Source: Candidatus Calditenuis fumarioli (GTDB lineage Archaea > Thermoproteota > Nitrososphaeria_A > Caldarchaeales > Calditenuaceae). From it: DNA of 64,000 nt. The DNA lies in assembly GCA_030059665.1 (NCBI GenBank), contig JANVYR010000001.1, forward strand, positions 241,184 through 305,183, in the 5' to 3' direction. Below are positions 49,477-52,539 of the stretch, one piece after another; position 1 is the first letter of the stretch; every line of letters starts with the position of its first letter. Position numbers and translations under genes: made by a program. Below the pieces are notes generated by a model. That model did not search any database. It worked only from the letters and a program-made list of their open reading frames with translations, and was not told where the DNA came from.

Positions 49477-50172
49477 ATGGGGATAGAGGAGCTGAAGCGA
49501 TTGCTGGACGAGGTGCTCGCGTCGATGCCTGAGCTTAGGGAGCTCGGCGACCGGTGCCTGTCGTCGAGGAGGTGGGGTGGGAGCGCGGTGCTGATGGTGG
49601 TGGACGCGGCCTTCACCTCGATCGGGATGTCCTACTTCAGGAGCGTGGTCCCGGCCGTGATCAGGTTCAAGGAGCTCTTCGTCGACACCGGCAGGGTCTC
49701 CTCCCTCCTCGAGCTGGCCTCGATGGAGTCCGACGAGCTGCGAACGGTTTGGAGGAACAGGAGGTCGTGGAGCGTGGCTCGGGAGGTGGCACGTCGGCTC
49801 ATCTCCTTCGACGGCGAGGACGACGTTCGGCGCCTCAGGACCTGGGCACTCGGCAGCGATCTGGAAAACTGGCGGGCGGATCCGATCGGCTCGATCAAGG
49901 GCGTGGGCCTCGTCACGTACCAGTACCTCAGGATGATGGGCGGCGTGGATACGGTGATGCCGGACAAGGTGGTGAAGCGGGTGATCAACTCGCTCCTTCG
50001 CCAAGCAGGCCTGAACGAGGTCTGGGACGACCTGGGTTTCGTGAGGGAGGTGGAGAGGCTGGCGGTCCTCACCGGACACAGGCCCGTGGAGCTGACCTGG
50101 ATGACCTGGCTCCTCACGGAGCGGAGGCTGATGGGCGAGCCGAGCTACTCGCGTCTCATCCACCTGATCTGA
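49477..50172 (+). CDS. HhH-GPD (DNA glycosylase fold)-like protein
   Basis: 231 residues, all-helical. GSIKGVGLVTYQYLRMMGG at about 148-166 resembles the helix-hairpin-helix, and VDTVMPDKVVKRVINSL places an aspartate (MPDKVV) where endonuclease III/MutY glycosylases have their catalytic aspartate (VDTHV). No Fe-S cluster cysteines are present. The N-terminal 90 residues do not match known glycosylases. A base-excision role is possible; a nuclease-dead structural homologue is also possible. ATG 49477; the stop overlaps an upstream ATG option of the next gene. Confidence 0.65.
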   Translation: MGIEELKRLLDEVLASMPELRELGDRCLSSRRWGGSAVLMVVDAAFTSIGMSYFRSVVPAVIRFKELFVDTGRVSSLLELASMESDELRTVWRNRRSWSVAREVARRLISFDGEDDVRRLRTWALGSDLENWRADPIGSIKGVGLVTYQYLRMMGGVDTVMPDKVVKRVINSLLRQAGLNEVWDDLGFVREVERLAVLTGHRPVELTWMTWLLTERRLMGEPSYSRLIHLI

Positions 50173-50219: not shown

Positions 50220-51656
50220 ATGATTCGAGTTTTGGGCGAAGGTGAGTCGCTCTTGAGCAGGTCCGGATGGCTCGTCCCGGTCGCGCTGCTCCTCCTGCTC
50301 TCCTTAACACTTCACCAGGTCGACGCGATCACCTACAACTCGCTGATCGACGACGGCAAGCTTTCCATCACGTTCAACTATCCGAGCGAGGTGAAGAGGG
50401 GGACGTGCTTCAACGTCCGGGTCGAGGCGAACGCTCTCGTTGCGGTCACAGACCTCAACGTCACGGTCTCCATCGAGCTGAGGTCAGGCCCCTCGGTCTA
50501 CGTCCTCTTCTCGGGGAAGGTCGTCGACGACTGGAGCGGAGGTCCGGGACCGGTGACCAACAACGTCGTGGGAGCCTGCGTCTCCAGCTCCCATCCCGTC
50601 GGGATCGTGATCCTCAGGACCTCCATCGAGTACGATCTCGGGTCGGATAGGCTCACGCTCGATAACTCGTTTCTGATGGCGAGCGTCCGGGACACGACCT
50701 ACGACGAGCTGGCTGCGCTCTACTCGGCGGCTCAGTCAGAGATCTCAAGGCTCAGGGCGGCGATGGGCGAGATGGGGCGTGAGATCGATAGGCTCAGGGC
50801 GCAGGTCTCGGACCTCATGTCGCAGGTCTCCGTGCTGAGCGATAGGCTAGAGCAGATGAGGACGAGGTACGACGAGCTTCAGTCCGCATACAACGCGCTC
50901 CTCGCGCAGTTCAGGGACCTACAGGACAGGTACGTGAGGCTCCAGCAGGAGCACGAGAGGTTATCGAGGGACTACGCGGCCCTTCAGGCGAGGGAGTCGG
51001 ACCTCAGGGGAGCCTATGCGGGGCTCCAAAAGGAGCTCGATGCGCTCAGGTCGGAGTACGCTGAGCTCCAGAAGCGGCACGCAGCGCTCAACGCGCTCCA
51101 CGACGACCTGAGGAAGAGATTCGAGGAGCTGAACTCGGCGTATCAGGACGCGGTGCGGCAAATCGGCTCCCTCTCGGGCGCTCTCGAGGAGAGGGGTAGG
51201 CAGATGGAGGTCCTCACGGCGATGCTGGACAACGCGCTGAGGGAGAGGAACGTCTTCAGCAACATAGTCATCGCGCAGGCGCTCGGCCTCGGCGGACTCG
51301 GTGCCCTTTACATGATCGAGAGGAGGAGATTGAGGAGGCCCGGGTCGTCCCAAGCTGCGCCGGGCGTGGAGGCGCCTGAGGGCGGTTCCGGGGCACCACC
51401 GACCCCGTCACCTGAGCTGGCGAACATCGGGCCCGATGAGAACAGGCAGGATAACGGGAACGGCGGCATGGTCCAGAGGGTGATCTCGGGGAGGAGGATC
51501 ACCATACCGAAGAAGGTCGCGGAGCTTCTGGGGATAGAGGTGGGTGACCCGGTGGAGCTGGGCGTGGTGGGCGACGCGATCTTCGTCAGGAAGCTTGCGA
51601 GGCGAGGAGACGGTCCACCTCCATCTGAGCCTGACGGACCTTCTCGACGCTCCTGA
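50220..51656 (+). CDS. Membrane-spanning AbrB-domain protein with external coiled coil
   Basis: 478 residues. Order of parts: signal or anchor helix (about 15-33), extracellular beta-sandwich (37-157, two cysteines at 63 and 120), long coiled coil (160-345, heptads rich in Leu, Glu and Arg), transmembrane helix (348-366, IVIAQALGLGGLGALYMI), Pro/Gly-rich linker (375-416), then an AbrB/SpoVT swapped-hairpin domain (418-460) with RRITIPKKVAELLGIEVGDPVELG. Topology puts the AbrB domain in the cytoplasm. It could be a one-protein sensor linking the surface to DNA. ATG 50220, ATG 50172 and TTG 50232 are alternatives. The 3' end overlaps mdh by 71 bp, antisense. Confidence 0.8.
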   Translation: MIRVLGEGESLLSRSGWLVPVALLLLLSLTLHQVDAITYNSLIDDGKLSITFNYPSEVKRGTCFNVRVEANALVAVTDLNVTVSIELRSGPSVYVLFSGKVVDDWSGGPGPVTNNVVGACVSSSHPVGIVILRTSIEYDLGSDRLTLDNSFLMASVRDTTYDELAALYSAAQSEISRLRAAMGEMGREIDRLRAQVSDLMSQVSVLSDRLEQMRTRYDELQSAYNALLAQFRDLQDRYVRLQQEHERLSRDYAALQARESDLRGAYAGLQKELDALRSEYAELQKRHAALNALHDDLRKRFEELNSAYQDAVRQIGSLSGALEERGRQMEVLTAMLDNALRERNVFSNIVIAQALGLGGLGALYMIERRRLRRPGSSQAAPGVEAPEGGSGAPPTPSPELANIGPDENRQDNGNGGMVQRVISGRRITIPKKVAELLGIEVGDPVELGVVGDAIFVRKLARRGDGPPPSEPDGPSRRS

Positions 51657-52539
51657 CCAGGGCCTCCCGCTCCTCGGGGCTCAGCTCGAGCTCTATCACC
51701 CTCTTGACGCCCGTCCTCCCGATCACCGCCGGCACCACCGAGCAGACCCCCTCGAACCCGTACTCGCCCATGTGGTAGAAGGAGACGGGGATCACCGCGT
51801 TCCGGTCCCTGACGATGGCGTCCACCATCAGCGCCGCGCCAGCACCCGGGGCGTGGTGTGCGGACCATCCCTTGAGCGAGATGATCCTGGCACCCATCTC
51901 CCTCGTCGCCTTCACGACCTCCTCGATCTTCTCCTTGCTGAGGAGCGAGGTGAGAGGTCTCCCTCCTACAGTAGTGTGCCTCGGGAGGAGCACCATGGAG
52001 TCGCCGTGCTCGCCCAGGATCGGGGCCTCGATCGAGTTCCAGGAGACGCCGAGCTCCTTAGCGATCAGCGTCTTGTACCTCCCCACGTCCAGCAGACCGC
52101 TGAAGCCCATCACCCTCTCCCTCTCGAAGCCAGTCGTCTTGAGGGCGACGTAGGTCATGACGTCGAGCGGGTTGGTGACCACTATCACCTTCGACTTCGG
52201 GGCGTGCTCCCTGATCTTGAGCGAGACGTCCCGGATTATCCCGGAGTTCTTCACGAGCAGGTCCATCCTGGTCATGTCCGCCTTCCGGACGAACCCGGCT
52301 GTGACCACCACCACCTCCGAGCCCTCGATGTCCCTGTAGTCGTTGGTGCCCGTGAACTCGACGTCGAGTCCCAGGATCGCGGCCATGTGGTTCAGGTCGA
52401 GCGCCTCACCCTGGGGAAGCCCCTGCACGATGTCCACCAGAACTACGTCACCCAGCTCCCTCAGACCGATGTGGAGCGCGGCCGAGGTGCCGACCCTTCC
52501 GGAGCCGATCACGGCTATCTTGGGCCTCATACCACGCAT
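51586..52539 (-). CDS. mdh: Malate dehydrogenase (LDH-like family)
   Basis: 317 residues. The nucleotide motif IAVIGSGRVGTSAA and the following acidic residue (VVLVDIVQG) indicate NAD preference. Substrate arginines lie in RKADMTRMDLL and GFSGLLDVGRYK; the catalytic His is in GEHGDSMVLL. This reads as malate and not lactate dehydrogenase (Arg at the specificity position in KADMTR). A minus-strand TATA-like CTATTTCAAAT lies 20-25 nt upstream. ATG 52539 or 52530 are alternatives. The 3' end overlaps the antisense membrane AbrB gene. Confidence 0.93.
   Translation of the reverse strand: MRGMRPKIAVIGSGRVGTSAALHIGLRELGDVVLVDIVQGLPQGEALDLNHMAAILGLDVEFTGTNDYRDIEGSEVVVVTAGFVRKADMTRMDLLVKNSGIIRDVSLKIREHAPKSKVIVVTNPLDVMTYVALKTTGFERERVMGFSGLLDVGRYKTLIAKELGVSWNSIEAPILGEHGDSMVLLPRHTTVGGRPLTSLLSKEKIEEVVKATREMGARIISLKGWSAHHAPGAGAALMVDAIVRDRNAVIPVSFYHMGEYGFEGVCSVVPAVIGRTGVKRVIELELSPEEREALVRSVEKVRQAQMEVDRLLASQAS

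Follow-up and report, generated by a model that had tools for sequence, protein, structure and literature searches.

A single open reading frame in the window (the whole 64,000-nucleotide stretch of Caldarchaeales DNA analysed here) joins an extracellular domain, a coiled coil, a membrane helix and an AbrB domain, which raises the question of what a domain of a DNA-binding type does at the cytoplasmic end of an envelope protein. An earlier note on this DNA had offered two ideas, namely that the protein senses the surface and controls DNA directly, or that it anchors DNA to the envelope. The second is the better one. We favour a surface-layer-type stalk whose cytoplasmic AbrB clamp would keep DNA, or else a partner, tethered at the envelope, and assign this reading a probability of roughly 0.4. 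The source genome has a size of 1.57 Mb; among named lineages Candidatus Calditenuaceae are closest to it, and its order of heat-loving archaea (Caldarchaeales/Aigarchaeota) includes Terraquivivens, Geocrenenecus, Wolframiiraptor and Caldarchaeum.

Reading frame and start codon

In agreement with the earlier note, which had placed all parts in one frame, the forward strand is open without interruption from 50220 to 51656. This corresponds to 478 amino acids from ATG 50220, and residue numbers given below refer to this version. Judged from the sequence, TTG 50253 is nevertheless more likely to be the start codon than the ATG adopted previously, being better placed with the Shine-Dalgarno sequence AGGTGA a few bases 5' of it. 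A TATA-like element (TTATAC) is located directly 5' of ATG 50220. The whole gene would then extend from 50253 to 51656 (+; 467 amino acids plus stop codon), and the protein would begin with an ordinary signal peptide.

At its 3' end (51586-51656, +) the gene overlaps tail-to-tail by 71 bp with the convergent gene for malate dehydrogenase (51586-52539, minus strand), as seen in the ORF table. The codons for the last AbrB residues and for the C-terminal tail of the stalk protein are thus antisense to the end of a conserved enzyme. The overlap measures about 104 bp in relatives from genus g4 (L034-L039), and malate dehydrogenase is a neighbour at the family level only. The low pS in the tail that follows the AbrB domain is in keeping with this antisense overlap in Calditenuaceae. 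The adjoining upstream gene (49477-50172) encodes 231 amino acids with no Pfam match.

Predicted extracellular stalk, membrane helix and linker

All features described in the following lie on the forward strand. The signal peptide (residues 12-36; 50253-50327) was assigned on a hydropathy peak of 1.82 and a helix at residues 18-31 of the AlphaFold model. It is followed by an Ig-like beta-sandwich, predicted to be extracellular (residues 37-158; 50328-50693), which was modelled with a mean pLDDT of 92 in an AlphaFold domain job covering residues 37-175. Two cysteines of the sandwich, Cys63 and Cys120, are invariant in the alignment across Caldarchaeales and probably form a disulfide. Sequence searches with the sandwich returned neither a Pfam model nor a sequence relative in the PDB, and Foldseek returned generic sandwiches only, with TM scores below 0.6.

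The coiled-coil stalk (residues 161-342; 50700-51245) appears in the full-length AlphaFold model as a single helix with pLDDT values mostly above 90 and lower ones at its end. Heptad analysis revealed a clean period of 3.5 residues and 26 unbroken heptads, of which 22 have a hydrophobic residue at position a and 22 at position d (Tyr or aliphatic residues at a, Leu at d); no canonical trimer motif was found in it. If fully extended, the stalk would measure about 27 nm. Matches of the coiled coil to ATG16, SMC and Rad50 were below cut-offs, reflected composition only, and were discarded.

A membrane helix rich in small residues is predicted at residues 345-366 (51252-51317) on the basis of hydropathy, the charge rule and conservation in the alignment. 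Segment 345-363 is only moderately hydrophobic (mean of 1.65 on the Kyte-Doolittle scale), and the full-length AlphaFold model did not build it as a helix. The flanking charge is near 0 before the segment and +3 to +5 after it, an asymmetry that was checked in 51 members, one frame of which ends at a contig edge. Because the residues after the segment are Arg-rich, a cytoplasmic C-terminus is predicted; the basic cluster recurs in the relatives examined, which supports the previously proposed cytoplasmic location of the AbrB domain. Gln353 within the helix is conserved in most Caldarchaeales members. Its position (51276-51278) is occupied by Glu in most Caldarchaeum members, which are devoid of AbrB.

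The membrane helix is connected to the AbrB domain by a cytoplasmic, Pro/Gly-rich linker (residues 367-414; 51318-51461), which is predicted to be disordered (pLDDT below 50) and varies in length from 19 to 61 residues across the family. A flexible linker of this kind can hold, and can hardly pass on a conformational signal. It therefore speaks for a tether and against rigid transmembrane signalling.

The AbrB domain and its putative DNA-contact residues

The AbrB/MazE-type domain (residues 415-460; 51462-51599) was recognised by two family models, by a GRR motif and by its pN/pS. PF04014 (MazE_antitoxin/AbrB) matched residues 426-461 with an E value of 7.8e-8 and 32.6 bits (cut-off 24.7), and the 64 C-terminal amino acids by themselves with 2.7e-9 and 37.3 bits; the score for NCBIfam TIGR01439 was marginally above the cut-off (28.5 versus 28.3 bits). 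The full-length AlphaFold model shows a folded AbrB part, at moderate confidence. The four remaining AbrB domains in the genome (C1:401401, C1:668941, C1:567962 and C2:566386) appear to be located at the N-termini of PhoU-like proteins of about 340-370 amino acids, and no AbrB protein of antitoxin size passed the AbrB search of the genome.

Loop 1 of the domain carries the motif [KR]420-x-x-[SA]423-G-R-R426. Residue 420 is Lys or Arg in all 31 AbrB-bearing members, and the GRR triplet, with Arg425 and Arg426, is likewise kept in 31 of 31. According to the SpoVT/AbrB alignment, Arg426 corresponds to Arg15 of B. subtilis AbrB. The equivalent of AbrB Arg8 is Gln in 29 of the 31 proteins, that of Arg23 is Ala in 24 and that of Arg24 is Glu in 18; R15 is thus the only residue retained from the DNA-contact set R8, R15, R23 and R24, a set that marks DNA binding by AbrB itself and not membership of the fold. 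The position equivalent to Sso7c4 Arg22 is mostly non-basic in the alignment. In Sso7c4, the double mutant of R11 (loop 1) and R22 (helix) loses most of its DNA binding, with little effect of the single mutations (PMC5222340). The first 16 residues of the domain carry a net charge of +3 to +5, and the domain as a whole is mildly positive (0 to +5). Given that its loop side alone is basic, DNA binding by the AbrB tail is plausible and may be weak or non-specific. We infer that such binding would be better suited to a multivalent tether at the membrane than to a regulator of specific promoters. The non-basic equivalents of Arg8, Arg23, Arg24 and Sso7c4 Arg22 nonetheless count against a DNA tether, as does the low overall charge.

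The same residues bear on an alternative in which the tail with the AbrB fold would serve as a clamp for dimerisation or protein binding without DNA contact and dock, for example, a partner from the cytoplasm beneath the envelope. Proteins of the AbrB fold are obligate dimers, and antitoxin members bind toxins. The replacement by Ala or Glu of those arginines in the helix with which AbrB and Sso7c4 contact DNA agrees with such a clamp, and so does the dispensability of the domain, the gene being kept where the domain is lost (see below). The invariant double Arg, on the other hand, sits in the very loop through which the fold contacts DNA, and a conserved partner gene was not found nearby. We regard a clamp of this type as unlikely and prefer the DNA tether.

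Distribution, inheritance and selection

With a profile of the outer domain, the gene was detected as a single copy in 38 of 44 Caldarchaeales genomes. AbrB is present in 31 of the 38 carriers and missing in seven. The earlier note had held that a lack of conservation of the fusion would refute its interpretation; with AbrB-bearing genes in 31 of 44 genomes of the order, it is conserved, and a chance or frameshift fusion is ruled out. The AbrB-less members comprise four genomes of the genus Caldarchaeum, which have a poly-proline tail in place of AbrB, and three of Terraquivivens, in which the protein stops no more than about 50 residues past the membrane helix. DNA alignment showed that the AbrB stretch was cleanly deleted between the conserved linker and the tail in two of the Terraquivivens genomes; the third (G020) has lost its end in a different way. 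Assembly artefacts were rejected for Caldarchaeum, where four genomes are concerned and other frames were without AbrB in the two checked, and for the two Terraquivivens genomes, which share one clean deletion. These losses imply that the order can do without tethering, which counts against the tether.

A phylum-wide search of 398 Thermoproteota genomes for the core uncovered distant relatives in families f29, f62, f13, f12, f26 and f5. Every relative read has a signal peptide, a sandwich and a coiled coil, and the membrane helix is lacking from a single short frame only; outside Caldarchaeales the tail is short and often poly-Pro, and AbrB was present in none of those read. The core, made up of sandwich, coiled coil and membrane helix, therefore predates the AbrB addition, and the constant part of the protein is the extracellular stalk since the core occurs without AbrB in other Thermoproteota families. 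In a core tree of 46 proteins the f29 relatives stood apart from Caldarchaeales with full support, and the AbrB label changed five times, at least three of the changes being forced by well-supported branches. The simplest reading is one gain in the Caldarchaeales line followed by at least two losses (Caldarchaeum; Terraquivivens). Loci from other Thermoproteota (L089-L097, L099-L102) form an undescribed sandwich/coiled-coil/membrane-helix family, often with poly-proline cytoplasmic tails.

Fusions of AbrB to membrane proteins were also sought elsewhere in the phylum. The top matches outside the family were mostly either short antitoxin-like frames or, with about 290-360 amino acids, PhoU-AbrB-like ones. 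Seven of the longer matches were read at full length and contained no stalk, and the combination of stalk and AbrB was absent outside Caldarchaeales among the matches listed for an AbrB profile in 300 Thermoproteota genomes.

Among AbrB-bearing members, AbrB is the most conserved part of the protein, with a mean identity of 47% and 46 residues in each member without indels. The corresponding identities are 39% (membrane helix), 36% (sandwich), 33% (coiled coil) and 24% (linker). Values of pN/pS, pooled from ten pairs that are partly saturated and not all independent, were 0.12 in both AbrB and the membrane helix, 0.17-0.19 in sandwich and stalk and 0.37 in the linker. Low pN/pS together with high identity indicates that the AbrB domain is in use. 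Pairwise identities of AbrB and core were correlated (r = 0.85; none of 2000 permutations reached this value), and AbrB has hence been inherited together with the rest of the gene.

Inspection of the gene neighbourhoods revealed neither a conserved operon partner nor a neighbour constant enough to be an obvious target, and a gene that stands alone in this way counts for a tether. The finding weakens the first of the two original ideas, here spelled out as a membrane-bound one-component regulator whose outer domain senses the surface or cell wall, alters AbrB pairing and controls promoters directly. Both kinds of part appear to be present in one membrane-bound chain: AbrB is a transcription-factor fold (PF04014, TIGR01439), and the small-residue-rich membrane helix with its conserved Gln353 is compatible with helix packing. 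Archaeal membrane-bound one-component regulators such as ArnR are known (PMC6396743). Apart from the missing target, however, the outer part was retained when AbrB was lost on at least two occasions, leaving seven members without it, and the 19-61 residues that separate membrane and AbrB are disordered and evolve fast. Such a regulator is quite unlikely; a variant of it may exert control through clustering alone.

Proposed function

We thus favour the tether over both the clamp without DNA contact and the sensor-regulator. The protein would be a single-pass envelope protein of SlaB-like build (sandwich, coiled coil and C-terminal membrane helix), whose short cytoplasmic tail was extended in Caldarchaeales by AbrB on a flexible linker. 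Pairing of chains by the coiled coil would bring the AbrB halves together to form the swapped-hairpin fold, and the basic loop 1 (K/R..SGRR) would hold DNA, or less likely a partner, near the membrane. Most likely it would act passively, as a link that tethers the nucleoid to the surface layer. The data show the architecture, the topology features, the conservation, the gain and repeated loss of AbrB at the level of the order and the selection on it; from these we infer the role as a stalk, the oligomer, DNA binding and tethering. The more specific proposal of a trans-envelope linker that holds the chromosome, couples surface and nucleoid and was removed where certain lineages deleted the DNA-binding tail is tentative and somewhat unlikely.

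The position that archaeal chromosomes take up with respect to the envelope is not well understood. A stalk-AbrB protein found across an order would make a direct link between surface and chromosome testable, with the AbrB-less relatives (Caldarchaeum and part of Terraquivivens) as natural comparisons. The results also point to an undescribed stalk family of Thermoproteota with an outer domain that has no Pfam model.

Comparison with known systems

SlaB, the membrane anchor of the Sulfolobus S-layer, forms trimeric pillars (PMC6911244). It shares with the Caldarchaeales protein a signal peptide, beta-sandwich, coiled coil and C-terminal membrane helix in the same N-to-C order (PMC6911244), but has two or three sandwiches instead of one and a shorter coiled coil, and SlaB sequences stop right after the membrane helix where the Caldarchaeales protein continues into AbrB. 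Homology to SlaB was not detected outside the coiled coil (hhalign probability of 0.5% for the sandwich); the SlaB family model NF040788 scored 25 bits, on the coiled coil only, against a cut-off of 700 bits. This counts against a SlaB-type stalk. Together with the single sandwich and the lack of recognised S-layer genes adjoining the stalk gene, it agrees with a different role at the surface (as an adhesin, a factor for cell shape or division, or a pilus partner), the AbrB domain acting as in one of the other readings. Yet the length of the coiled coil is strongly conserved at 175-189 residues among AbrB-bearing members, as a spacer that sets a constant height would require, and the gene is broadly present in single copy in Caldarchaeales, so that we consider another surface function improbable and retain the stalk. 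None of the papers found describes a Caldarchaeales S-layer, which likewise counts against a surface-layer stalk.

As to the cytoplasmic part, ArnR and ArnR1 of Sulfolobus have an HTH at the N-terminus and two transmembrane helices at the C-terminus, along with a putative HAMP and sensor domain (PMC6396743). They are archaeal and likewise unite a DNA-binding-type domain and a membrane anchor within one chain; they differ from the stalk protein in having no extracellular stalk and an HTH instead of AbrB. The earlier statement that no standard one-component system has this layout is thus a fair one. With the N-terminal domain of AbrB/SpoVT and with Sso7c4 (PMC5222340) the AbrB tail has in common the swapped-hairpin fold, an Arg at the position of AbrB Arg15 and a basic loop 1. 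Those proteins are soluble, whereas here the Arg8/Arg23/Arg24 contacts are not conserved and there is an extra invariant Arg425. Archaeal PhoU-AbrB proteins also have AbrB fused to a larger protein, but in these AbrB is N-terminal and the stalk is absent.

A working analogue of the tether model is Noc of Bacillus subtilis, which binds DNA and membrane simultaneously and brings DNA to the membrane (PMC4331003), although it is a peripheral protein with an amphipathic helix and no extracellular part. None of the papers found describes a membrane-anchored AbrB. Each half of the protein has known counterparts; an extracellular coiled-coil stalk joined to a cytoplasmic AbrB domain was seen neither outside Caldarchaeales among the matches listed for 300 Thermoproteota genomes nor in the papers searched.
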